Positions 6,676 through 59,899 of a stretch of 64,000 nucleotides of DNA are shown piece by piece. The position numbers were made by a program, and so were the translations under genes. How positions within the stretch are numbered: the first letter of the stretch is position 1; every line of letters begins with the position of its first letter. This DNA is from Flavobacteriales bacterium (lineage in GTDB: Bacteria > Bacteroidota > Bacteroidia > JANQJC01): NCBI GenBank assembly GCA_028281825.1, contig JANQJC010000099.1, forward strand, positions 1-64,000, read 5' to 3'. The notes under the pieces are model-generated. The model ran no database searches. It worked only from the letters and a program-made list of their open reading frames with translations, and was not told the DNA's origin.

Positions 6676-8523
6676 ATGAAGAAAATTTACACTTTCATTC
6701 TCGTTTTAGCTACAGTTCAGTTTTCGTTTGCTCAAAACGATGTTCCCCACACAGATGCTTCGACCCGCTCAATGCTTGATTCACTTCTGGCTCCATTCTA
6801 TCATGGTGTAGCTTCAGGCGACCCGCTTCAGGATAGGGTAATTATATGGACCCGTGTAACACCAGACCAATCAGGTAGTGTGGATGTAGATTGGAGAGTG
6901 GCGACAGATACCAACTTTACAAATGTGGTTGCTTCAGGCAGTGAAACTACTGATGGTACTATGGATTACACAGTAAAGGTTGATGTGACAGGGCTTCAGG
7001 CTAATACATGGTATTATTATGAGTTTGAAACTGGTGGAGTAAAATCATTGATGGGAAGAACAAGAACCGCCCCAGCCACAGGTTCAGGCCTTGACCCACT
7101 TAGGTTGGCTATGGTTTCATGTCAAGACTACCAGAACGGGTACTATAATGCTTACAATGATATGGCTCAAAGAAATGATATTGATGTAGTAATTCACTTG
7201 GGTGACTATATTTATGAGGGCGGGGGCAGTAGTTCACTGGGTAGGGACCACGAGCCACCGCATGAAATCATAACGTTGGAGGATTACAGGACACGTTACT
7301 CACAGTATCGTCTTGACCCTGACTTAAGGGCTGCTCATCAGCAATACCCATTTATATGCGTATATGACGACCATGAAAGTTCAAATAACTCTTGGAATGG
7401 TGGAGCAGAGAATCACGACCCCCAAAGCGATGGTAACTGGGCAGATAGAAAAGCTATCGCGTTGCAGGTTAATCAGGAGTGGTTGCCTATCAGGTTACCT
7501 GACCCAAATAATAATGAAAAGATTTTCAGAAAAATATCTTATGGTGATTTACTGAGTCTCTTTATGATTGATACAAGGCTATACGGTAGAGATGAACAAG
7601 GCTCGGGAGTAGACTCAACCCGCAGGATGCTGGGTCAGGAACAGCTGGATTGGCTGGCGGCTCAAATGGACAGCTCAAGTAGCTTATGGAATATAATTGG
7701 CCAACAGGTGATGATGGCTCAACTTTTTGTGTTTGGGCAAACGGTTACTACTGACGCGTGGGATGGATATCCAAGAGAAAGAGATAATCTTTACAATGAG
7801 ATTATTAATCGCGAAATAGAAAACGTGGTGGTGTTAACAGGAGACATCCATACCTCGTGGGCAAATGACTTGCGTTTGGATAGTTATGATGCTAGTGACC
7901 CCAATAACATAACGGGTTCAGTAGGTGTGGAGTTGATTACTCCAAGTATCACGACCCAAGCTTCACCAATTCCAATACCATCTGCGCTTATTCAATCACA
8001 AAATGATCATATACACTGGGTTGAACTTTCTAAGAAAGGGTTTACCATACTAGATGTAAACTCAACAAGGGCTCATGCTGATTGGTATTTTGTGAGCACG
8101 ATTACAAATCAAAGCTATAATACCACAGTAGCAAATTCCTTTTTCGTGAATGAAGGCGAAACATTCTGGAGGCAAGCCAACGATGCTTCAGTGCCAGCGG
8201 TTACGTACCCGCCACTAGCGCCTCAAATAGACAATACTGTTACAGTATCTGAGTTGGATAGGCAAAATACCGTTTTAGTTGGTGTTTATCCAAACCCATT
8301 CGAGAATGAGGTAGTAGCCCAGTTTAACCTTTTTCGCCCAGCCGAAGTAACCGTAGAGGTTTATGACCTGATGGGCAAATCAGTATACTTACAACAATTA
8401 GGCACAGTGAGTGAGGGATTGAGGTATTACCAGCTGGATTTATCAAATCTAGCTTCAGGTACATACACTTTTACCCTGAGGAGCAAAGGGGAGCAAGTTT
8501 CGAGAAAGATTATCAAATTTTAA
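6676..8523 (+). CDS. PhoD-like alkaline phosphatase with T9SS C-terminal sorting domain
   Basis: 615 residues. A signal peptide (KKIYTFILVLATVQFSFAQ) is followed by the PhoD N-terminal beta-domain (FYHGVASGDP, IIWTRVTP) and the metallophosphatase core: MVSCQDYQNGYYNAY, HLGDYIYEGGG, YDDHES, ENHDPQSDG and LTGDIHTSWAND, which carry the expected metal-binding Asp and His residues. The last ~75 residues (from YPNPFENEV to SRKIIKF) are a type A T9SS sorting domain. Inferred: an outer-membrane-translocated, cell-surface or released phosphodiesterase or phosphomonoesterase for phosphate scavenging, exported by the T9SS core encoded at 54-60 kb. Monocistronic, with its own promoter. Confidence 0.92.
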   Translation: MKKIYTFILVLATVQFSFAQNDVPHTDASTRSMLDSLLAPFYHGVASGDPLQDRVIIWTRVTPDQSGSVDVDWRVATDTNFTNVVASGSETTDGTMDYTVKVDVTGLQANTWYYYEFETGGVKSLMGRTRTAPATGSGLDPLRLAMVSCQDYQNGYYNAYNDMAQRNDIDVVIHLGDYIYEGGGSSSLGRDHEPPHEIITLEDYRTRYSQYRLDPDLRAAHQQYPFICVYDDHESSNNSWNGGAENHDPQSDGNWADRKAIALQVNQEWLPIRLPDPNNNEKIFRKISYGDLLSLFMIDTRLYGRDEQGSGVDSTRRMLGQEQLDWLAAQMDSSSSLWNIIGQQVMMAQLFVFGQTVTTDAWDGYPRERDNLYNEIINREIENVVVLTGDIHTSWANDLRLDSYDASDPNNITGSVGVELITPSITTQASPIPIPSALIQSQNDHIHWVELSKKGFTILDVNSTRAHADWYFVSTITNQSYNTTVANSFFVNEGETFWRQANDASVPAVTYPPLAPQIDNTVTVSELDRQNTVLVGVYPNPFENEVVAQFNLFRPAEVTVEVYDLMGKSVYLQQLGTVSEGLRYYQLDLSNLASGTYTFTLRSKGEQVSRKIIKF

Positions 8524-9229: not shown

Positions 9230-10678
9230 TTACTCTTCAGGCTTCTCAATCTTTGCAATTTTAATATTAAAGAACCCGTATATCATGGTTGTGATTGGGC
9301 TAAGTATGTTGAAAAAGCAGAAAGGTGCGAAAGTCATGGTGGCAACTCCTAGCACAGACGCCTGAGTAGCTCCACAGGTATTCCACGGCACGAGTACTGA
9401 AGTAACTGTACCTGAGTCCTCCAATGTTCTGCTCAAATTTTCAGGTTTTAAGCCCCTCTCTTTGTAAGTTTCTGCATACATTCTTCCAGGTACTACAATA
9501 GCCAGGTATTGGTCTGATGCTGTTATGTTAAAAAAGATACAAGTTCCTGTGGTGGAGGCTATCAGAGCTCCCGTAGAGTGCGCCAAAGAAATAACGGCCT
9601 CACTTATCCTCCTTAATAAGCCAGCCCTTTCCATAATACCTCCAAATATCATAGCACATAATATTAGCCATATGGTATTAAACATACCCCACATGCCACC
9701 GGTTGATAGCAGCCTATCTACTGCCTGGTTACCTGTTTCGATAGACACACTGCCAAACATGGCATTTAGCACACCCCTATAAGTGGATTCTAAACCAATT
9801 GTTTCAATTCCTGAAACGCTGTGCACAACTTCGGGTTGAAAGATGATAGCAAAAACACCACCTAATAAAGAGCCAATGAGTAATGCAGGGAAGGCAGGTA
9901 CTTTTTTTATTATCAGTATTATCACGGCTGCAGGCACCAAAAATAGAACAGGGTTGATATTGAAATTTGCGTCTAATAAAGTCAGTACCTCACCCATTTT
10001 TTCTGCTTGCACATCTCCTGTAGCAAATAGCCCCATACCAATGTATAGCAGTAAGGCGATACTAAAGGTAGGCACTGTGGTCAGTGCCATATATTTAATA
10101 TGTGTAATTAAATCTGTACCAGCCATGGCAGGAGCGAGGTTAGTGGTATCAGATAGAGGAGACATTTTATCGCCAAAATAAGCACCTGATATGATGGCAC
10201 CAGCTACCCAACCCTCGTGCAGCCCAAGTGCTTTTCCTATTCCAAGCAATGCAATACCTACCGTTGCAACAGTTGACCATGAACTACCAGTAGCCAAAGA
10301 CACAAAGGCGCATACTATACAGGCTGCGAATAGAAAAATAGTGGGGTTAAGAATTTGCAAGCCATAGTATATCATAGCAGGCACAACTCCACTTATCATC
10401 CATGTTCCAGCCAGGGCTCCAATCATCATTAGTATCAATATTGCAGGCATTGCTGAAGCTATACTTTTTACCACTCCTTTTTCAAGGGTCCTCCATTTCA
10501 TGCCAAGCCTTATGCCTATAATAACTGCAACCATTGCAGATAGTATAAGTGCAATTTGGTTCGGTCCGTAGTTTGTGTCTTCCCCAAAAAGGTATACGTT
10601 TAGGCTGAGTAGGCCTATTAAGAATATTATTGGAATGAAAGCCTGCAGCAGCGTTGCTTTTCTCTCGTTCATGCTCAT
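9230..10678 (-). CDS. nhaC: Na+/H+ antiporter, NhaC family
   Basis: 482 residues with about a dozen hydrophobic segments, typical for NhaC. Recognisable family stretches include SLATGSSWSTVATVGIALLG, GAIISGAYFGDKMSPLSDTTNLAPAMAG and SRTLEDSGTVTSVLVPWNTCG. It exchanges Na+ for H+ across the inner membrane, supporting pH and sodium homeostasis, which fits a marine or saline lifestyle. The neighbours are a convergent SiaB-like gene and a divergent DUF4920 lipoprotein gene; no operon partner. An internal ATG at 10672 is an alternative start. Confidence 0.92.
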   Translation of the reverse strand: MSMNERKATLLQAFIPIIFLIGLLSLNVYLFGEDTNYGPNQIALILSAMVAVIIGIRLGMKWRTLEKGVVKSIASAMPAILILMMIGALAGTWMISGVVPAMIYYGLQILNPTIFLFAACIVCAFVSLATGSSWSTVATVGIALLGIGKALGLHEGWVAGAIISGAYFGDKMSPLSDTTNLAPAMAGTDLITHIKYMALTTVPTFSIALLLYIGMGLFATGDVQAEKMGEVLTLLDANFNINPVLFLVPAAVIILIIKKVPAFPALLIGSLLGGVFAIIFQPEVVHSVSGIETIGLESTYRGVLNAMFGSVSIETGNQAVDRLLSTGGMWGMFNTIWLILCAMIFGGIMERAGLLRRISEAVISLAHSTGALIASTTGTCIFFNITASDQYLAIVVPGRMYAETYKERGLKPENLSRTLEDSGTVTSVLVPWNTCGATQASVLGVATMTFAPFCFFNILSPITTMIYGFFNIKIAKIEKPEE

Positions 10679-13870: not shown

Positions 13871-13977
13871 AGGGTCCACATCAGTTTTTTGTTTTCATAG
13901 CGTTTATTATTGATGTCCATCAACTTTGTAACGAATATCCATCCTTGCATTATTAAAGTAAAAGTCCAGCCACTTTA

Positions 13978-14547
13978 ATGGATTTGAGCCATAGTAAATA
14001 TCATCAAACCCAGGAAGCTATCAGCCTTGAGGAGGAGCAGCTTAGGCTTGCCTTGCGCAAACCTGAAGCCTTTGCACCTATCTACGAGAAGTACTTTTTG
14101 CAGATATATAGGTTCGTGTTGCAGCGGGTTGGCGATGAAGATACGGCTGGTGATGTGACTTCCCAAGTATTTGCCAAAGCGCTTTTTAAATTAAGGGATT
14201 ACAAGTTTAAAGGGTTACCTTTCAGTGCATGGTTGTATAGGGTGGCGCAGAATGAAATCGGAATGTTCTTCAGACAGCAAAATAGGCAAAGAGTAGTGAA
14301 TGTTACCACAGAGAGCTTGGGTGATATGATGGATGAGATAGAAGAGGACCAGCATGAAGAGCGTCTACAAATGGTTCTTACAACTATTAAAAAGCTAAAC
14401 ATGGAGGAAGTGGAGTTGATACAGATGCGCTTCTTTGAGAAAATGTCCTTCAAAGAAATAGGTGATATTTTAGACATTACTGAAACAAATGCCAGGGTAA
14501 AAACACATAGGGTAATTGAGAAAATACGAAAGCTTATGAAGCAATAA
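13978..14547 (+). CDS. RNA polymerase ECF-type sigma-70 factor
   Basis: 189 residues. The sigma-2 region is seen in YEKYFLQIYRFVLQRVGDE...SQVFAKAL (residues ~35-70) with the -10 reading segment FSAWLYRVAQNE near 80-91, and sigma-4 in LIQMRFFEKMSFKEIGDIL followed by NARVKTHRVIEKIRKLM. No sigma-3 region, hence ECF. It is followed after 11 bases by a gene for a single-pass membrane protein, the position where an anti-sigma factor is usually encoded. The regulon cannot be read from this window. Confidence 0.92.
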   Translation: MDLSHSKYHQTQEAISLEEEQLRLALRKPEAFAPIYEKYFLQIYRFVLQRVGDEDTAGDVTSQVFAKALFKLRDYKFKGLPFSAWLYRVAQNEIGMFFRQQNRQRVVNVTTESLGDMMDEIEEDQHEERLQMVLTTIKKLNMEEVELIQMRFFEKMSFKEIGDILDITETNARVKTHRVIEKIRKLMKQ

Positions 14548-14558
14548 TACTATTTGTA

Positions 14559-15341
14559 ATGAGTGATTTTAATATAAATATTGATTCGCCAAAGGTTAGC
14601 GACGAGCAGGCACTGAAGCATAAAAACTTTAGTAAGGTGTTGGCTTCATACAAGGCTATGAAGCTACCCTTTTATAAAACACTGCGCTTTTGGTTATGGA
14701 CAGCAGGTAGCTTTACCGCCCTATTGCTGCTTTTGCTATTCATTTTTAATCCATTTGAGAAAAAAGAAGAGCCTTACATTCACCAAGAAGTGATAATTAC
14801 TGAGCCAATTGATGTGCCAGTAGTGGAAGTTAACCAGCCAGAAAAAGAGATTGAACCTTCAGTGATGATTACTGAAGATACCGTAGAAGTTGTATTGGAT
14901 GAAAAGATGGAAAAGAAACATGAGATGGTAAGAGACACGATTGTTAAAACACAAGTGGTGGAAAGCCAGCAGCAGGTTGCTGAGAAAATTGGAAAAGTGA
15001 TAGAGCTTACACCAGTTGTATTAGTGTGCGGCAAGAAAAGCGGTGAGAAAGTACATAAAATGCAACTGGGAACGGTAGGAAAGCTCACAGGTCATATTCC
15101 CGAGTTGAATGAAAAGATGACTGTGCTTTCATTTGACATGGAGTATAAGGTGAGAGGCGAGAACAAAAAACTTTCTTCTGACTCCTATAAATTTACCAAA
15201 GAGATGCTTTATGCTACTGATGATATGAAAGAAGGAGATGTTGTAAGGTTCAGGAATGTGAAATGCCAAACCAAAGGTGGGATGATTTTCACCATTGATG
15301 AGATGAGCATTTTGATAGAAGATGGTATGACCCAGTGGTAG
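14559..15341 (+). CDS. Single-pass membrane protein with GldM-C-terminus-like outer domain, partner of ECF sigma factor
   Basis: 260 residues. A ~40-residue cytoplasmic N-terminus, one TM helix (LRFWLWTAGSFTALLLLLLF, about 42-61), a Glu/Val-rich spacer to ~145, then a compact beta-domain (~148-257). That domain runs PVVLVCGKKSG...TGHIPELNEKMTVLSFDMEYK...SSDSYKFTKEM...GDVVRF.NVK...TIDEMSILIE, which parallels the last ~100 residues of GldM at 58.7-59.0 kb. No HxxxCxxC zinc anti-sigma motif is present. Inferred: a membrane-spanning regulator of the upstream sigma factor sensing the envelope. It could equally be an unrelated envelope protein. Confidence 0.7.
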   Translation: MSDFNINIDSPKVSDEQALKHKNFSKVLASYKAMKLPFYKTLRFWLWTAGSFTALLLLLLFIFNPFEKKEEPYIHQEVIITEPIDVPVVEVNQPEKEIEPSVMITEDTVEVVLDEKMEKKHEMVRDTIVKTQVVESQQQVAEKIGKVIELTPVVLVCGKKSGEKVHKMQLGTVGKLTGHIPELNEKMTVLSFDMEYKVRGENKKLSSDSYKFTKEMLYATDDMKEGDVVRFRNVKCQTKGGMIFTIDEMSILIEDGMTQW

Positions 15342-15343
15342 TT

Positions 15344-16339
15344 TCAGCTTCTCTTTTTCAAAACAAATTCCACGGTGCCGCCTTTCTTGAATAATGATTC
15401 AATTGCATCAAGTAGTATGAATAGAGGCCCCGTTGATAGAAAGAAAAACTTCTGCAAAAAGAGGTTGAATTTGCTGTAATCATCAGCATAATGATGGTTG
15501 CCTTTCAGCACTTCATAAAGTATCTCGCGCTTTTTTTGTAGAGCATTCAAAATGCTTTGCTGAGTGCCGTAAGGGTTATATTCCAAGTTAAAATGTTTTT
15601 CCTGTATTACATCGTAACCAAATTCATTCATTAGATCTATAAAGTCTTTTGGCGTAAAGAAAAACAAGTGCCTTGGTGCATCCATGTGGAACCATTTACC
15701 CTTAAACAGGCGACTTTGCCAGCTATCAATATTTGGGAATGACATTACAAGAAAACCTTCAGGTTTTAGAATGGAGGTGATTATATCGAGCGTCTCCTTA
15801 GGCTTATCTAAGTGCTCAAATACATGAAATAATGTGATGGCATCAAAAGTATTGGGTTCATAATCATCGGCTTCTAAAGCACCAATTTTCAGATTAATAC
15901 CTTCAACCTTGGCAGCACGCTCGGCAGAACCTCCAGGTAATTCTATACCGTGCATTTCAGCTTTGCTGTGTTGATTTACCAAGCTCAGAAACGTACCATT
16001 TCCACAACCAATGTCCAGTACTTTACCTGTGTCATCCAGATGGTCAGTAATTAGTTTAGCCCTTCGCTCCCTGAACTTATCCAATAAGTTTTCTATCCAC
16101 GACTCTTTAAATTTGTCCTCTCCCTTTCCGTAGTATTCTTTCTGGTATGCCTCACCAAGTTGTTCTGGAGTCGGCCTTGGTGCAAGAAAATATGCATTAC
16201 ATCTATCGCATTGATTGATGGTGTATAATTTTCCAGTGATATCATCGGTTGAATAAAGCACTACACCAGCTTTTTCACCACAGTATCCGCATGAGTGTGT
16301 GGTGTCGAGGGTTCCGGGTATTGGAGTTGATGTTGTCAC
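15344..16339 (-). CDS. Class I SAM-dependent methyltransferase with N-terminal Cys-rich motif
   Basis: 331 residues from GTG 16339. An N-terminal zinc-finger-like pair (HSCGYCG ... QCDRCNAYFL) is followed by a Rossmann methyltransferase domain: VLDIGCGNGTFLSL (SAM motif I), ALEADDYEPNTFDAITLFHV, and HVFEHLDKP. It resembles ubiquinone/mycinamicin-type and glycan-associated methyltransferases; the substrate is unknown. The reading frame stays open upstream to 16507 but would then overlap the divergent gene and its promoter, so the downstream GTG just before the finger motif is chosen. Convergent with the GldM-like gene (2-base gap). Confidence 0.8.
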   Translation of the reverse strand: MTTSTPIPGTLDTTHSCGYCGEKAGVVLYSTDDITGKLYTINQCDRCNAYFLAPRPTPEQLGEAYQKEYYGKGEDKFKESWIENLLDKFRERRAKLITDHLDDTGKVLDIGCGNGTFLSLVNQHSKAEMHGIELPGGSAERAAKVEGINLKIGALEADDYEPNTFDAITLFHVFEHLDKPKETLDIITSILKPEGFLVMSFPNIDSWQSRLFKGKWFHMDAPRHLFFFTPKDFIDLMNEFGYDVIQEKHFNLEYNPYGTQQSILNALQKKREILYEVLKGNHHYADDYSKFNLFLQKFFFLSTGPLFILLDAIESLFKKGGTVEFVLKKRS

Positions 16340-16415
16340 AATGAGAGCGCAAAATAGTAAAACCATTGAGGTAAGTTTATAAAATTGCAAGGTGGTTTTA
16401 CTCAAAATATTCACA

Positions 16416-16443
16416 TTGATGCGTTGGCTTATTTGTACTTTTG
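16416..16443 (+). promoter_or_regulatory. Promoter of the large secreted protein gene, near-leaderless
   Basis: TTG at 16416-16418, a 17-base spacer, then TACTTTTG at 16436-16443: a full Bacteroidota promoter. The ATG follows only 5 bases after the -7 element, so the transcript should start at or next to the start codon. Confidence 0.7.
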
Positions 16444-16448
16444 TCGGC

Positions 16449-18611
16449 ATGAGAATTTTAGTCCTATTACTTCTGTTTTCCATAAGCGCTGTAGCGCAGG
16501 AAAACATTTCTATTATAACTTCACAGGAAAACCAAGATAATCCAATTAGTGGGGCGGCTATAAGGGATGTTCAGAAATTGTTGGAACAAGCTTGCCAATG
16601 TGAGGTGGATATCAACAAGGCTGGAAGTAAGCAGCAAATAATTCTACCCGATATTGACGCTGAAAAAGCTAAGGAGCCAACCGAATTTGAAGAGAACACC
16701 ACCAGCCCATATTTGCATTACCCCAAGCATTGGTATACTTGGTCAATAGGGGGGATTGCTGATACGTTGACCCTAAAACTAGAAACACCAACCTACGTTG
16801 GATTGAGCAATGCCTTATACGGTTTATTGCAAGAGAGACTGGGCTTTAAGTTTTATCACCCCAAGGAAACTTTTATACCTAGGTGGGATAAATTACCAGT
16901 GGAAAGAAATACGGTATGGCAAGCTCAACCAAGGTTTGATAAAGCCGGTTTTCACCTACACACACAGCACCCCTTAGAATTAACAGAACCTTTATTGGAT
17001 CATGAGTTTCCCCAAGGGATTGAATTGGTGAAAGAATACATTGACTGGTTGGCAAGAAACGGACAGAACTATTTTGAGTTCAATCTTCTGGAAAGTATTG
17101 ATTTGAAGGAATGGCCTGAATTTTCTAAGCAAATGGTGGATTACTGCCATGAAAGAGGAGTGATAGCAGGAGTGGATGTTTCGCTGCACATGTTGCAACA
17201 AAAAGCCTTTCAGCTGTATAGGAACTGGCCTGCATCATGGCGAAGCAAGCAGACCCAAATCACTAAACGCACTGCCATGCTTTTTGCAGCCGATTGGGAT
17301 GTGTTGAATGTAGAATTTTCAAGTACTGAGTTTACCAGCGGTAATGTGAAAAAGAAAAAGCGTTTGCAATTGCATTTAGGTAAATTACTGAGCGAGGAAC
17401 ATGGTGCTAAATTGATGGGTCGCAAGCATGTTGTAAAAGAGACAGAAGAGTTGGGCGGCAAGAAAAAGAAGAAGAAGAAAAAAGACTATGAAATGAGTGA
17501 GGAAGAGGCAGCCCTGGATAAGAAAAGAGGAGTGCTAATCCACACGGTGATGTTTTATACGATATCTGAGGAAAAGGCTCCTGTGTATCAGAATGAAAAC
17601 CTAAGGCACATGCTTGATGAAATGATGAAAGAGAAGGATGTGCGTGAAACTTGGTATTATCCTGAATCAGCCTATTGGGTGACGTTTGATAGCTCAATAC
17701 CATTATTTCTATTACCTTATTTAAGTGGTAGATTGGATGATATACTATTGATGGACTCTTTGCAAATACCTGGTCATATCACGTTTTCTTCAGGATGGGA
17801 GTGGGGATATTGGTTGTTTGATTGGAGTATCGCACGATGGAGTTGGAAACATAGCATTAATAGGGAGGAGCAAGAGGTATATCCTACTATGTTTATTGAG
17901 GATATGTTTGATAATGAGCAGGTGACTGAGTTTTTCAAAAAAAATGTAGCACTTCAGGATGAATATCTGAAAGATAAAGAATTGATGCGTTACATGACTG
18001 CTATGACGGTAACTGATGAATTGCCTGAGAAGTTTGCATTAGAATTTCACCCTAGGCCAAAGCATCATTACGAATGGATGGCTAAAAAAGCTCCAATAGA
18101 TAGCGTAAGGGCTATTAGGGAGAGGATATTGCCAGTATTGGATGAATTTATCGTAAAGACCAAGCGAGAGTTGGATGGTTTTAAAGCTGGAAATTATTAC
18201 ACTACACTTCCTGATGAGAAAAGAAGACTGTTGGATGAAATGGTGGCGGGAACTGAGGTGCTTCTCTATAGGGCACTGCATAGAAAACATACCCTTTCTT
18301 ACCTTTTAAACAAGAGAGAGAGTAAGTTGCTAAAAGACGGTAAAGACCACAGCGAACTATTAACAGAAGCTGCAACAATCAGGAATACAGCCTTGCAAAT
18401 AGTGAGAGAGCAAGAAGCAAGATACCGTTACGACGTGGAGAGAATGACTACCAAGTTCAAGGATCACACTTCATATAGATTTGGGTACCTATATCCGGTA
18501 CATGACCTGCACTTTTGGAAGCGCGAAGAAGAGCAGTATCGTAGAAACAAGTTTAGCCCCTTCTTTATGAGCATTTGGAATGTTTACAGGATTATTGGGA
18601 TAATCAACTAG
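16449..18611 (+). CDS. Large secreted protein, glycoside-hydrolase-like fold suspected, with Lys-rich insertion
   Basis: 720 residues. Signal peptide RILVLLLLFSISAVAQ. The N-terminal third carries a segment GLSNALYGLLQERLGFKFYHP that resembles the small alpha/beta domain preceding TIM barrels in GH67/GH20-type glycosidases, followed by a barrel-like stretch (EYIDWLARNGQNYFEFN, HERGVIAGVDVSLHML). A very basic insertion with eight consecutive Lys lies near residues 338-346, then an acidic patch. Later regions are Trp/Tyr-rich (SSGWEWGYWLFDWS) and end in a helical tail. Glycan-related function is an inference only. The start at 16449 follows its promoter; upstream in-frame codons precede the promoter. 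Confidence 0.75.
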   Translation: MRILVLLLLFSISAVAQENISIITSQENQDNPISGAAIRDVQKLLEQACQCEVDINKAGSKQQIILPDIDAEKAKEPTEFEENTTSPYLHYPKHWYTWSIGGIADTLTLKLETPTYVGLSNALYGLLQERLGFKFYHPKETFIPRWDKLPVERNTVWQAQPRFDKAGFHLHTQHPLELTEPLLDHEFPQGIELVKEYIDWLARNGQNYFEFNLLESIDLKEWPEFSKQMVDYCHERGVIAGVDVSLHMLQQKAFQLYRNWPASWRSKQTQITKRTAMLFAADWDVLNVEFSSTEFTSGNVKKKKRLQLHLGKLLSEEHGAKLMGRKHVVKETEELGGKKKKKKKKDYEMSEEEAALDKKRGVLIHTVMFYTISEEKAPVYQNENLRHMLDEMMKEKDVRETWYYPESAYWVTFDSSIPLFLLPYLSGRLDDILLMDSLQIPGHITFSSGWEWGYWLFDWSIARWSWKHSINREEQEVYPTMFIEDMFDNEQVTEFFKKNVALQDEYLKDKELMRYMTAMTVTDELPEKFALEFHPRPKHHYEWMAKKAPIDSVRAIRERILPVLDEFIVKTKRELDGFKAGNYYTTLPDEKRRLLDEMVAGTEVLLYRALHRKHTLSYLLNKRESKLLKDGKDHSELLTEAATIRNTALQIVREQEARYRYDVERMTTKFKDHTSYRFGYLYPVHDLHFWKREEEQYRRNKFSPFFMSIWNVYRIIGIIN

Positions 18612-52484: not shown

Positions 52485-53660
52485 ATGGAGCTATCCATTT
52501 TTCTAGAGCCACCCAGCCCCACCATTATGGAAATGGCGGCTACATTGCCTGATAATACCTTAGGCCGAAAAATCAAGTTTATAGAAAGAGGTAGTGAAGA
52601 AGCCGAGTTGAATCAGATAGATATCGCCATTATCGGTGTTAAGGAAGAGCGCGGTGCTATAAACAATAAAGGCTGTAGCGAAGGGCCTGATAAAATCCGT
52701 AAAAAACTCTATCCTCTTTTTGCTGGTGGTTATGCGCCTAAGATAGCCGACTTTGGTAATGTAGGCGCAGGCAACTCTATTAATGACACCTACTTTGCAG
52801 TGAACACTGTAATGACAGAATTACTCAAGAAAAAGGTAGTTATCATAGTATTGGGTGGTAGCCAGGATATTACCTATGCAACTTACAGGGCATATGAGGG
52901 CTTGGAGCGCACCGTTAATATAGTTTCTGTTGACCCAATGATTGATATTGGGGCTATTAATGAAGACGTTACCTCAAAAAATTATTTGGGAAATATCATT
53001 CTGCATCAACCCAATTACCTATTCAATTATTCTAACCTGGGTTACCAGACCTACTTTACTGACCAGAATAATATTGAGTTAATGGAAAAACTCTTTTTCG
53101 ATACTTATAGGTTGGGGCAAGTTAAGTCGGATATGGAAGAGGTGGAGCCGGTAGTGCGCAATGCTGATATTCTCACCTTTGATGTGGGGGCCATCAGATA
53201 TTCGGATGCGCCGGGTAACAGAAATTCATCCCCAAATGGGTTTAATGGTGAAGAGGCGTGCAAAATTGCACGATACGCGGGGCTAAGCGACAAGCTAAGC
53301 TGTGTTGGTTTTTATGAGTTAAATCCTTTGTCGGATAAGGATGAGCAAACGGCATTTTTGGTAGCGGAAATGGTGTGGTATTTCATTGAAGGGTATTATG
53401 GCAGAAAGAAGGATTACCCTGTGGGAACCAAGAATGGATATACTAAATATCATGTGAGCTTGGAGGATGGTAAATATGATTTGGTGTTTTACAAAAGCGA
53501 CAAAAGCGGTCGCTGGTGGATGGAAGTGCCTTACCCTCCAAGTAAAAAATCAAAGTACGAAAGGCATCATATGGTGCCTTGCTCTTATGCAGACTATCAA
53601 ACAGCTTGCGATAATGAAATGCCAGACCGTTGGTGGCAGGCTTTTCAAAAGCTGAGCTAA
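52485..53660 (+). CDS. Ureohydrolase (arginase/formimidoylglutamase)-fold protein with degenerate metal site
   Basis: 391 residues. The overall arginase-fold layout is kept: NKGCSEGPDKIRKKLYPL (substrate-loop analogue), VVIIVLGGSQDITYATY, VNIVSVDPMIDIG, ADILTFDVGAIRYSDAPG and CKIARYAGLS...GFYELNP. But Mn ligands are altered: the GGDHS position is GGSQD (124-128, His lost), DAHxD is DPMID (150-154, His lost) and DxD is DVG (233-235, second Asp lost). A ~70-residue C-terminal extension ends in a Trp-rich tail. It is often annotated formimidoylglutamase, but catalysis seems unlikely. Positioned between topA and the porP-gldKLMN cluster. Confidence 0.82.
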   Translation: MELSIFLEPPSPTIMEMAATLPDNTLGRKIKFIERGSEEAELNQIDIAIIGVKEERGAINNKGCSEGPDKIRKKLYPLFAGGYAPKIADFGNVGAGNSINDTYFAVNTVMTELLKKKVVIIVLGGSQDITYATYRAYEGLERTVNIVSVDPMIDIGAINEDVTSKNYLGNIILHQPNYLFNYSNLGYQTYFTDQNNIELMEKLFFDTYRLGQVKSDMEEVEPVVRNADILTFDVGAIRYSDAPGNRNSSPNGFNGEEACKIARYAGLSDKLSCVGFYELNPLSDKDEQTAFLVAEMVWYFIEGYYGRKKDYPVGTKNGYTKYHVSLEDGKYDLVFYKSDKSGRWWMEVPYPPSKKSKYERHHMVPCSYADYQTACDNEMPDRWWQAFQKLS

Positions 53661-54965: not shown

Positions 54966-55138
54966 TTGCAACAGTGCCTTTTGTAACCTTTTAATACTTG
55001 TTCCGTTTTAGACCAACGTTTTTGAAAGAGATTATAAACAGGCTAAGTAATTTTAAAAGGCACAATAATATAGGATTGGGCACGTTTAATGCTAACCAAG
55101 ACTATAGAAAAGATTATTGTTCACCAAACGGTTTGACC

Positions 55139-56398
55139 ATGAAAAGGATTCTGTTTTTTATTACTATTGCTGCGCTCGCCAGCGGCTGTAGGTATGACAA
55201 CGGGCAGCTTATGGGTGTCCAGGGTAGGGAAGATTGGTATCAGGAAGATCCTTACGGTATGCTTAATATACCAATGGGTAGTTTCCAAATGGGCGCCAGC
55301 GACCAAGATGTGCCATATGCGATGACAAATCCATCAAGGACTGTGTCTGTACAGTCTTTCTACATGGATGAAACTGAAATCACCAACAACGAGTACCGTC
55401 AGTTTGTTTTCTGGGTTCGCGATTCATTGGCTCACTGGTTAATCGGTGAAGACCACATTCTGGAAGAAGGTGAATACGGTGAAAGGATTGACTGGGATGC
55501 CAGGATTTACTGGGATGATGAAGAGTACATGGAAATACTCGAGGAATTGTACTATCCTGAGCATGAGCGCTTCTACAAAAGAAGGGAAATTGATACTCGT
55601 AAACTTAACTTTGAGTATTACTGGATAGACTACAGGGAGGCTGCACGTAAAGAAAACCGTGAGCAAGGGATGAAAGACCGCTCTGTATTTATCAAGAAAG
55701 ACATTATTAATGTATATCCTGATACACTGGCTTGGGTGCATGATTTCACCTACTCGTTCAATGAGCCAATGACTCAAAACTACTTCTGGCATCCAGCTTA
55801 TGATGAATACCCTGTAGTGGGTGTTACCTGGAAGCAAGCTCGTGCCTTTAGTATCTGGAGAACACAACTACTATGCTTATTCAAGTCTGACTACGGTGAG
55901 ACTTTTGTAAACGACTTTAGGTTACCAACAGAAACTGAGTGGGAATATGCAGCTCGTGGTGGCCTTGATTTATCACCATATCCATGGGGCGGTCCATACA
56001 TCCGTAACAGCCGTGGTTGTTTCCTTGGAAACTTTAAGCCAATGCGTGGTAGCTACGTTGATGATGGTGGCTTCCATACGGTAAAGGCTACTTCATACGC
56101 TCCAAACGATTACGGTTTGTATTGTATGGCTGGTAACGCTGCTGAGTGGACAAGCAATGCTTTTGATGAGTCTGCTTACAATTTTACACATGATTTAAAC
56201 ACTGACTATGTGTATGATGCCAAAGATTCTGACCCGCCTGCCTTGAAGCGTAAAGTTATCAGGGGTGGTTCATGGAAGGATATAGGCTACTATATGCAAA
56301 CAGGAACACGAACTTATGAATACCAGGACACTGCTAAGTGCTACATCGGTTTCCGTAATGTGATGACATTCCTTGGTAGAGATAAGAGCGACTTCTAA
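55139..56398 (+). CDS. gldK: Gliding motility / T9SS lipoprotein GldK
   Basis: 419 residues from ATG 55139, which begins a lipoprotein signal peptide ending in LASGC; the frame stays open to 54998 but those codons encode no signal. The body is an FGE-sulfatase-like domain: IPMGSFQMGASDQD, SVQSFYMDETEITNNEYRQF, PVVGVTWKQARAF, RLPTETEWEYAARGG, CMAGNAAEWTSNAF and VIRGGSWKD. GldK forms with GldN a ring on the periplasmic face of the outer membrane. It leads the gldKLMN operon. Confidence 0.95.
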   Translation: MKRILFFITIAALASGCRYDNGQLMGVQGREDWYQEDPYGMLNIPMGSFQMGASDQDVPYAMTNPSRTVSVQSFYMDETEITNNEYRQFVFWVRDSLAHWLIGEDHILEEGEYGERIDWDARIYWDDEEYMEILEELYYPEHERFYKRREIDTRKLNFEYYWIDYREAARKENREQGMKDRSVFIKKDIINVYPDTLAWVHDFTYSFNEPMTQNYFWHPAYDEYPVVGVTWKQARAFSIWRTQLLCLFKSDYGETFVNDFRLPTETEWEYAARGGLDLSPYPWGGPYIRNSRGCFLGNFKPMRGSYVDDGGFHTVKATSYAPNDYGLYCMAGNAAEWTSNAFDESAYNFTHDLNTDYVYDAKDSDPPALKRKVIRGGSWKDIGYYMQTGTRTYEYQDTAKCYIGFRNVMTFLGRDKSDF

Positions 56399-57260: not shown

Positions 57261-57358
57261 TTCATTGCGAAATCGCAATAATAATTAATGTGTTACTTTT
57301 TTTCGTTTCTACATTATATAACTAATAACTTAACCTATTAAAGATTAAATAGAAAAAA

Positions 57359-59041
57359 ATGGCTGGAGGAAAGGAAACCCCGAGACAGAAGATGATCGGG
57401 ATGATGTACTTGGTTTTAACGGCTCTCCTCGCCCTTAACGTTTCTAAGGATATCCTGGATGCGTTTGTTAGGGTTAATAAGGGGCTTGAAGCTACCAATG
57501 CCAGTTTTACAGGGCAAAATGAAAAACTGTATGCTGAGTTTGAGGTACAAAAAGCGTTAAACACGGAAAAAGTCGGGCCGTATTACGATGCGGCAGCCGA
57601 GGCTAAGAGGCTTACACAAGATTTGTATGATTATATACACTCTGTGAAAAAGCAAATTGTGGAGGAAGTAGACCAATTACAAGGACAAGACGCGGAAATT
57701 GAGAAAAGGCTTGATAACGTGTCTCTAATTGAAAAGAAGGATGATTACGATATACCTACTCACATTATGCTTGGAGATGGTTCTACAAATATTGACAAGT
57801 TTAGGGCAGCTGAGCTAAAAGGTAAATTGATTGATTTTAGAACTAGTATGTTAGGTCTTCTTGACCGCCCTGGTTTAAGCGTCGCCAATAAACAAGCAGT
57901 TCTTGAATCTTTAGATGATTTGGGTATCCATACTGATGACCCAAAACCTGAGGAATTGAGCGAGGATGAGCAAAAAGACCCTAATGCTAAGAAGTGGGAA
58001 ACAAGAAATTTTTACCATAACGTAGCAATAGCGTCAATTACCATTCTTACTAATATGCAGAATGACATCCGTAATGCTGAATCAAGGATTGTGAATACAT
58101 TGCTTGGTCAAATTAGTGCTCAAGACTATAAATTTGACACACTTGCAGCAAAAGTAATTGCTCCAACAAGTTATGTCTTATTGGGTGAAGAGTATACTGC
58201 TGACATTTTTGTGGCGGCTTTTAGTACTACCCAAGACCCTGAGGTAAAACTTGGTGCTGTAGACACAACGGGAGGTAAGGTAGAATTGCAAGGAGAGGGA
58301 GATACTACTGGTGTTATAGTAGAGAAAGGAGTTGGTACATATACTAAAAGAGCTTCGTCGGAAGGATTGAAGACTTACAGCGGTGTTATTGAAGTAAAAA
58401 ATCCTAGCGGTACCATTAGTAAATATCCGTTCTTTAGTGAATATATGGTGGCTAAACCAACCGCGGTTGTATCACCAGATAAAATGAACGTATTCTACAT
58501 TGGTGTTGACAATCCAGTTTCAGTTTCTGCACCTGGTGTAGCTATGGAAGACTTGAGTGTTTCTATCAGCACAGGTTCTATTACTGCTACTAGCAAATCA
58601 CAAGGTAAGTACGTTGTGAAAGTGAGTGGTGGTGGTGAGGCTGTAGTAAGTGTATCCACAAAAACGCCAGAGGGTGGCAGTAAATCTCTTGGAAAGTCTG
58701 ATTTCCGTATAAAGAGGGTGCCTGACCCAGTTGCTTATATCGCAGGGCAAAAAGATGGTCTGATTAATTCAGGAAAACTTATTGCTGCCGGAGCCGTAAT
58801 ACCTAAGATGGAAAACTTTGACTTTGACCTAACCTTTAGAGTAACTGCGTTCGAATTGTCAATGAACGTAGGGGGTGACTTCGTTACCATGCAAACAACT
58901 GGTAATAGGTTGTCGCCTGAAATGGCAAACCGTATCCAGAGTGCCAAAAGGAATACCAAGGTGTATATCGAAGAGATAAAAGCCGTTGGTCCTGACGGTG
59001 TGCCACGTAAGCTAGCCCCAATCAACTTGAAGCTAAACTAA
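57359..59041 (+). CDS. gldM: Gliding motility / T9SS motor protein GldM
   Basis: 560 residues. Typical opening GGKETPRQKMIGMMYLVLTALLALNVSKDIL, in which the TM helix lies at about 12-30, then helical periplasmic domain 1 and three beta-rich domains. The last ~100 residues (PVAYIAGQKDG, IPKMENFDFDLTFRVTAFELS, IEEIKAVGPDG, LAPINLKL) form the domain that contacts the GldK/GldN ring. A similar domain occurs in the protein encoded at 14559. Its gene is 12 bases before gldN. Confidence 0.97.
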   Translation: MAGGKETPRQKMIGMMYLVLTALLALNVSKDILDAFVRVNKGLEATNASFTGQNEKLYAEFEVQKALNTEKVGPYYDAAAEAKRLTQDLYDYIHSVKKQIVEEVDQLQGQDAEIEKRLDNVSLIEKKDDYDIPTHIMLGDGSTNIDKFRAAELKGKLIDFRTSMLGLLDRPGLSVANKQAVLESLDDLGIHTDDPKPEELSEDEQKDPNAKKWETRNFYHNVAIASITILTNMQNDIRNAESRIVNTLLGQISAQDYKFDTLAAKVIAPTSYVLLGEEYTADIFVAAFSTTQDPEVKLGAVDTTGGKVELQGEGDTTGVIVEKGVGTYTKRASSEGLKTYSGVIEVKNPSGTISKYPFFSEYMVAKPTAVVSPDKMNVFYIGVDNPVSVSAPGVAMEDLSVSISTGSITATSKSQGKYVVKVSGGGEAVVSVSTKTPEGGSKSLGKSDFRIKRVPDPVAYIAGQKDGLINSGKLIAAGAVIPKMENFDFDLTFRVTAFELSMNVGGDFVTMQTTGNRLSPEMANRIQSAKRNTKVYIEEIKAVGPDGVPRKLAPINLKLN

Positions 59042-59053
59042 AAACTTTGAGAT

Positions 59054-59899
59054 ATGAAAAGGTTTCTGAAAGCACTACTTATTATTTTAATCATCGGCTT
59101 TGCTGCTGGTGAGGAAGCAATTGGTCAAAACGTATTAGACGGTGTTTATGTAAAAGAACACTATCCAACACGCAGAGTAGTTCCCTATGCGCATCTTCGC
59201 GAAGCAGATGTGATGTGGAGCAAAAGGATATGGAGAAAGCTTGACCTTCGTGAGAAGATCAATCACCCGCTTTACTTTCCGGTTGAAAGGATAAAAGATA
59301 GAAGAAGCCTGGCTCAGGTTATTATTGAAGCTGTGAGAGAAGGTAGTCTTACTGCCTATGACGGTTTTGATGATGAGTTTACCATGACGCTTACAAAAGC
59401 TGAGATTGAGAATAAACTGGTTAAGGTGGATACATTTTACGTTGAAAATCCAGAGCCTCCATACAACCTTGAGATGAAAGTATCAAGAAATGAGCTGAGG
59501 CCTGACATCATTAAGGAGTTTAGGATCAAGGAAGACTGGTTCTTTGATAAGCAAAGGTCAGTAATGGATGTGCGTATTATTGGTATACAGCCAGTTAAGG
59601 AGAATATTGACCCTACTACAGGTGAAGTAAGGGGTACTGAGCCTATGTTTTGGATTTATTTCCCTGAGGCAAGAAATATTTTTGCCAGTGCGGAGGTTTT
59701 TAACCGCACTAATGATGCAGAGCGCAGGACAATGGAAGATATTTTCTGGAAGAGAATGTTTGGTAGTTATGTCTACAAAGAGAATAACGTTTATGACAGA
59801 CGTATAAATGAATATAAAACGGGAATAGACGCCCTCTTAGAGGCTGAAAAGATAAAAGAGGAGATATTTACCATTGAACACGATTTATGGGAGTATTAA
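59054..59899 (+). CDS. gldN: Gliding motility / T9SS protein GldN
   Basis: 281 residues. Signal peptide (RFLKALLIILIIGFAAGEEAIGQ) then the GldN/PorN signature YVKEHYPTRRVVPYAHLREADVMWSKRIWRKLDLREKINHPLYFP; the C-terminal half ends ENNVYDRRINEYKTGIDALLEAEKIKE. It partners with GldK in the periplasmic ring of the T9SS. It ends the gldKLMN operon, followed by a terminator. Confidence 0.96.
   Translation: MKRFLKALLIILIIGFAAGEEAIGQNVLDGVYVKEHYPTRRVVPYAHLREADVMWSKRIWRKLDLREKINHPLYFPVERIKDRRSLAQVIIEAVREGSLTAYDGFDDEFTMTLTKAEIENKLVKVDTFYVENPEPPYNLEMKVSRNELRPDIIKEFRIKEDWFFDKQRSVMDVRIIGIQPVKENIDPTTGEVRGTEPMFWIYFPEARNIFASAEVFNRTNDAERRTMEDIFWKRMFGSYVYKENNVYDRRINEYKTGIDALLEAEKIKEEIFTIEHDLWEY

Follow-up and report, generated by a model that had tools for sequence, protein, structure and literature searches.

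We know of no account of how production of the motor rod and production of the ring of the T9SS are matched in Bacteroidota. The question is raised by the locus analysed here, in which an ECF sigma factor gene is followed by a gene for a membrane protein whose outer domain resembles part of the rod protein GldM. The initial annotation had proposed that this pair may sense the T9SS ring, or a similar envelope partner, directly and adjust sigma activity. Here, the whole stretch of 64 kb (the window) was analysed together with 395 genomes of the class. The work was computational throughout, most of the relatives are uncultured assemblies, and numbers prefixed with L denote loci fetched from genomes.

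The ECF sigma factor and its membrane partner

The two genes and the parts of the second are located as follows.

13978..14547, + strand: ECF sigma factor P0001, 189 aa (Pfam Sigma70_r2 and Sigma70_r4)
14559..15341, + strand: membrane partner of the sigma factor, P0002, 260 aa, probable anti-sigma factor or sensor (homologous module directly behind a sigma gene in 113/120)
14559..14690, + strand: conserved N-terminal segment in the cytosol, aa 1-44, probably the part that contacts the sigma factor (N-segment profile A1)
14688..14756, + strand: single transmembrane helix, about aa 44-66 (hydropathy maximum of 2.04 at residues 44-63; charge asymmetry)
14757..15002, + strand: charged periplasmic linker, aa 67-148 (sequence; outside all domain matches)
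15003..15323, + strand: GldM/PorM D4-like periplasmic domain, aa 149-255 (profile, fold and shuffle tests)

P0001 matches sigma-70 regions 2 and 4 of Pfam (E 2e-10 and 4e-10) and the ECF superfamily model TIGR02937 at 1e-25, which upholds the earlier assignment of an ECF sigma factor to 13978-14547. It possesses regions 2 and 4 only, with regions 1 and 3 absent, and its length of about 190 aa is that of an ECF (group IV) factor. The best model match is the BldN-family model TIGR02952, yet the score is below the cut-off. In the sigma tree, P0001 falls within a clade of module-associated sigma factors, which is separated from two other ECFs with support of 100/100.

The gene for P0002 begins 11 nt past the end of the P0001 gene. 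Its sole hydrophobic segment covers about residues 44-66. Lysine and arginine outnumber aspartate and glutamate by 8 to 4 across the 44 residues before the helix, and the ratio is 2 to 7 just after it, indicating that the N-in/C-out orientation is right; the single-helix topology given in the initial annotation therefore stands on hydropathy and charge counts. The Hx3Cx2C motif of zinc anti-sigma factors is absent from P0002, in which the first cysteine occurs no earlier than residue 157, in agreement with what had been noted before, and the protein was rejected as a standard zinc anti-sigma factor. Among the curated Pfam and NCBIfam models, no known anti-sigma family matched P0002 or its relatives.

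Downstream of the pair, the divergent open reading frames 15344-16507 (minus strand) and 16392-18611 (plus strand) overlap at their 5' ends as listed, which makes an error in one or both of the listed starts probable. No Pfam model matches the product of the latter frame, a protein of 739 aa.

Homology of the outer domain to GldM D4

Residues 149-255 of P0002 are homologous to domain D4 of GldM/PorM. The Pfam model GldM_4th scores 14.5 bits on P0002 against a cut-off of 24.6, so that standard annotation would miss the domain. In the organism's own genome PF12080 has three matches: besides P0002, these are the window's gldM (57359-59041) and another gldM gene, carried on contig 112. The similarity is weak when P0002 is compared with the window's own GldM by single-sequence BLAST (E 0.027), and the Smith-Waterman score of the D4-like domain against the D4 of that protein exceeds those of all 2000 shuffles. 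When the D4-like domains of sigma operons were aligned with true GldM D4 domains by hhalign, the alignment ran end to end (99.5%, E 7.8e-23), and hmmsearch of the D4-like profile against the PDB found PorM chains at 9e-5. The AlphaFold model of the D4-like domain, for which the input alignment held no true GldM, has a pLDDT of 93; the full-length alignment of P0002 was set aside and not folded, half of its D4 rows being misplaced. Seven PDB structures were matched by Foldseek at E<=1e-3, all of them PorM/GldM, with TM-scores of 0.73-0.79 by query length. The GldM-like periplasmic domain, previously seen by pattern, is thus real homology by alignment, shuffles, profile search and fold, and the structural comparison with the GldM C-terminal domain that had been suggested returned PorM/GldM alone. 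Chance resemblance was considered and rejected. Identity of the D4-like domains to true D4 amounts to only about 15-20%, however, and the surface that binds the ring may thus not be conserved.

P0002 shares with GldM/PorM a single helix, the N-in orientation and a periplasmic D4. It differs from them in having no D1-D3, in its unrelated cytosolic segment, and in being paired with a sigma factor. The full-length GldM model TIGR03517 did not match P0002, and the possibility of a truncated GldM was considered and rejected.

A conserved module in Bacteroidota

The search of the 395 class genomes splits P0002 in two. Its N-terminal 74 or so residues recur in larger proteins, while its C-terminal part recurs as a separate gene slightly downstream. 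The N-segment profile has matches in 136 of the 395 genomes at E<=1e-3. Sigma factors of the same clade lie directly upstream on the same strand in 113 of the 120 distinct module cases having enough upstream sequence, with a median gap of 9 nt, and in this way the regulator pairing proposed at the outset is supported: the N-segment travels with the sigma clade. The N-terminal 70 or so residues are apparently an undescribed conserved module of Bacteroidota; free N-segment proteins of 66-83 aa belong to no Pfam family.

Three layouts can be distinguished. In layout (a), found in the window and in L059 and L121, the sigma gene is followed by a fusion of N-segment, helix, linker and D4. In layout (b), the N-segment and helix are joined to a large periplasmic domain of about 450 aa, often with a gene for a secreted GldM D3-D4-like protein behind it (Pfam GldM_3rd 7e-4, GldM_4th 2e-4; TIGR03517 1.4e-10). 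In layout (c), the sigma gene is followed by a free N-segment/helix peptide of 66-98 aa, several times beside gldM (L044, L062, L106-L108, L214, L218, L221) and PorP-like genes. In most relatives, the outer domain is the unrelated large domain and not D4; that domain has no Pfam match, and its model is of moderate quality (pLDDT 78), with no PDB fold match at E<=1e-3. L059 and L121 form a second family with the two-gene D4-fusion layout of the window, and the sigma tree requires two origins, one for the D4 fusion of the window and one for that of L059/L121. Behind the L121 pair lies a PorG-like gene, whose best NCBIfam match is T9SS_PorG (1.3e-17, below the cut-off). The N-segment occurring alone, fused to the large domain or fused to D4, with D3-D4-like secreted proteins in the same operons, constitutes a domain-fusion link from the sigma contact to the GldM-like outer part.

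SprA was found in 385 of the 395 genomes, so co-occurrence of the module with the T9SS is uninformative within the class; many T9SS-bearing genomes are without the module, which is thus an accessory regulator. In a second sample, of 198 genomes of high quality, the only one with the module at 1e-6 was the organism's own. No match was obtained in a first search of genome contigs with P0002, in a plasmid collection, or in viral contigs searched with a relative's sigma factor.

Several loci carry further genes of these types. Tandem small secreted D4-like proteins of about 125-250 aa, in several copies per locus, stand behind sigma/module genes in L054, L064, L150, L164 and L179. Proteins of 587-870 aa with the large periplasmic domain are encoded beside a sigma/short-module pair in L044, L047, L049, L109, L110, L112 and L219, that of L044 also containing leucine-rich repeats, and in L321 and L331 genes of large-periplasmic-domain proteins are preceded by the promoter element described below. 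The own genome (G000) has, on contig 78:20408-20605 (L105, about 7409-8175), a second member of the sigma clade and, with it, an unfused N-segment/helix peptide of about 66 aa; beside this pair are a suf-like cluster and the gene for a large protein that is apparently exported.

Promoter elements of the sigma clade in relatives

An element composed of TGTATCTTTTT, a spacer, and CGTTATA or GCATTAT is common to the regions upstream of sigma genes in this clade. TGTATCT is present in 46 of 106 such regions, against about 2 in shuffles, and a strong site occurs in 66 of 113, against 4 shuffled, so that a promoter element of the sigma operon itself is predicted. The form TGTAACGAA-N12/13-(C/A)(A/G)TTAT lies upstream of the sigma genes in L037, L041, L051, L158 and L166.

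In the genomes of 16 relatives, the pattern TGTATCTTTN{13,14}RTTA has 172 sites, compared with 14 for the reversed pattern, and 96 sites were inspected for the genes downstream. gldM follows nine of them, each in a different genome. A formimidoylglutamase-like gene and then porP come after three sites, with gldK in addition in two cases; one site precedes porP-porP-gldK. Further inspected sites precede genes for GldJ (TIGR03524 above the cut-off, L322) and for GldK/GldJ-like, GldL-like, PorE/OmpA-like, sigma, and large-periplasmic-domain proteins. The sites before gldM, porP-gldK and gldJ place T9SS/gliding machinery in the regulon of the relatives.

As a control, gldM upstream regions were scored in genomes with and without the module, one per genome; the genomes were picked from a list and not at random, and gldM genes whose starts were not found were left out of both sets. 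Scores above the 95% shuffle level were obtained in 9 of 24 module-bearing genomes versus 0 of 27 without the module (Fisher p 0.0004), and above the 99% level in 5 of 24 versus 0 of 27 (Fisher p 0.018), p-values that ignore phylogeny because the families differ between the two sets. Most GldM genes in module-bearing genomes have no strong site.

Promoter elements and T9SS genes in the window

A two-block model trained on sigma upstream regions only, that of the window's sigma gene included, was used to scan both strands of the window. Four sites score at least 17.5, against 0.2 in shuffled windows. Three of these sites and the T9SS genes concerned are listed below.

13926..13955, + strand: predicted promoter of the sigma operon itself (TTGTAAC...GCATTATTA), score 17.5, located 22 nt upstream of the sigma ATG
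54981..55011, + strand: promoter element of the clade type between porP and gldK, score 18.3, located 127 nt upstream of the gldK ATG
57290..57319, + strand: promoter element of the clade type between gldL and gldM, score 20.7, the window's best, located 39 nt upstream of the gldM ATG
55139..56398, + strand: gldK, ATG start (the listed open reading frame has an upstream TTG at 54998)
57359..59041, + strand: gldM, rod of the T9SS motor, with a D4 similar to the outer domain of P0002 (TIGR03517 329 bits against a cut-off of 180; GldM_4th 84 bits)
59054..59899, + strand: gldN, a subunit of the ring, to which the D4-like domain is presumed to bind (position behind gldM)

The score of 17.5 at the sigma gene is not independent, as this gene was in the training set; its element is the variant TGTAACGAA-N12-CATTAT (13927-13953). 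The element at 54981 lies above the 99.9% level of shuffled upstream regions and is the third best position in the window. The -35 variants at the gldM and gldK elements (TGTTACTTTT, TGTAACCTTT) differ from that of the sigma gene. In the own genome, the strict form of the sigma gene's promoter occurs once, at that promoter itself, and the relaxed form 22 times against 15 in the control, barely above it. The sigma factor on contig 78 has no site of the two-block-model type within the scanned region.

The link of the sigma/partner pair to the T9SS is well supported. The initial annotation had drawn it from the outer domain, and it is stronger than could then be known owing to the clade elements before gldK and gldM in the window; in relatives, such elements precede gldM, the porP-gldK operon and gldJ.

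Other observations were made during the scan. A model match of 20.0 on the minus strand at 9542 lies inside an antiporter gene (9230-10678) and is presumably due to chance. The gene directly upstream of porP-gldKLMN (52485-53660) is formimidoylglutamase/arginase-like, and a gene of this kind holds the same position in L314, L327 and L341, there with a sigma-type promoter. The second, full-length gldM on contig 112 (L056:10269-11879; TIGR03517 331 bits) has a weaker clade-type element upstream, scoring 15.1.

Proposed mechanism and alternatives

D4 homology of the outer domain, conserved pairing with the sigma clade, and promoter elements at sigma, gldK and gldM are shown by computation. A regulator ending in a relative of D4, with sigma elements before gldK and gldM, suggests feedback on the stoichiometry of motor and ring. 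We lean towards the reading that a membrane regulator, probably an anti-sigma factor, gauges the T9SS ring by means of a GldM-D4 mimic and tunes gldK/gldM expression. The first 44 or so residues of the partner would hold the sigma factor at the inner membrane or modulate it there, with one helix crossing the membrane and the charged linker of about 80 residues spanning part of the periplasm. The end of the partner would act as a copy of GldM D4, the domain with which the motor rod docks on the GldN/GldK ring. In two-hybrid assays, PorM D4 by itself binds PorN (PMC5790014), and crosslinking of PorM D4 to PorN was achieved in E. coli cells that produced both proteins together (PMC12421860). The mimic would probably sample the docking surface of the ring, which may be empty, occupied by real GldM, or missing together with the ring, and its binding would change the partner and thereby alter sigma release. 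Free sigma factor would transcribe the operon that encodes it and, most likely, two parts of the T9SS operon located 40 kb away, gldK-gldL and gldM-gldN, the outcome being feedback control of the motor-to-ring stoichiometry. In this scheme, we infer the anti-sigma sign, the contact of the D4-like domain with GldN, direct sensing of the ring and the feedback logic. Tentatively, a more specific form may be proposed, in which a decoy of the rod's docking tip competes with GldM for GldN/GldK sites and reports ring occupancy to the ECF sigma factor that sets gldK/gldM.

It is rather doubtful, though worth weighing, that the window's pair regulates its own operon or a few other genes, the gldK and gldM elements belonging to the genome's second module sigma and the T9SS link being one of kinship only. 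The single occurrence of the strict own-type motif, the differing -35 variants and the sigma/short-module pair on contig 78 are consistent with this, as is the finding that, in relatives, gldM lies beside the short-module sigma gene and has the element type of that sigma (GCATTA) upstream. However, one model derived from sigma upstream regions fits all three listed sites of the window, and it finds none at the contig-78 sigma in the scanned region.

The target of the outer domain must also be considered. The partner could be a true sigma regulator whose D4-like domain, a borrowed generic beta-sandwich, binds something other than the ring, be it a different protein of the envelope or one of the secreted D3-D4-like relatives. 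The D4-like domains are highly diverged, many occur in secreted proteins of sigma operons and so could pair mutually, and the outer domain of most relatives is unrelated, with no PDB match. We regard this as unlikely, given the abundance of T9SS parts in regulons and neighbourhoods and a fold search that gave PorM/GldM only and no generic sandwiches. That the partner is an activator, a scaffold or a structural T9SS part and not an anti-sigma factor appears improbable: the lacking zinc motif and the lacking match to known anti-sigma families point that way, but position, topology, the short helix-rich cytosolic segment and the 113/120 pairing are traits of single-pass anti-sigma factors.

Comparison with known systems

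As in the ECF/single-pass anti-sigma pairs SigE-RseA and SigW-RsiW, a sigma gene is followed by one for a one-helix N-in/C-out protein, with an element at its own promoter and a small regulon. Unlike in those pairs, the partner in the window has no zinc motif, a cytosolic segment of a new family and a GldM D4-like outer domain. RsbN is a one-helix anti-sigma factor without the zinc motif. The BldN-RsbN pair of Streptomyces is accordingly similar in partner type, and P0001 best fits the BldN-family model, although below its cut-off; the phylum is different, and the likeness is one of sigma model and partner type.

SigP of Porphyromonas gingivalis is an ECF sigma factor that drives T9SS genes (PMC4800418, PMC8265659). 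The parallel with PorXY-SigP drawn in the initial annotation holds in this respect, but as an analogy only, since the published SigP motif (C/T-AAA..., PMC4800418) is unlike the TGTANC...NRTTAT of the clade. Moreover, SigP is under a two-component system, and no anti-sigma factor is mentioned in PMC4800418 or PMC8265659. In Flavobacterium psychrophilum, the SM6 sigma-ECF promoters lie at T9SS genes (GldN, PorU, PorG-like), and one ECF/anti-sigma pair has such a promoter as well (PMC9723704); the likeness is by description, and in that paper no sigma factor is assigned to them and no GldM-like partner is described. A full-text search for GldM together with an ECF sigma factor and an anti-sigma factor found no paper among open-licence papers. 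What is new here among ECF sigma/membrane regulator systems is hence the cytosolic segment family and the GldM-D4 sensor.

If the proposed reading is true, a sensor made from the very domain with which the rod docks would explain in a simple way how rod and ring are matched, in spirit like the checkpoints of flagellar assembly. The promoter elements would furthermore provide a code for reading T9SS regulons in many uncultured lineages, and the module would constitute a defined family of sigma partners, unnamed by standard annotation.
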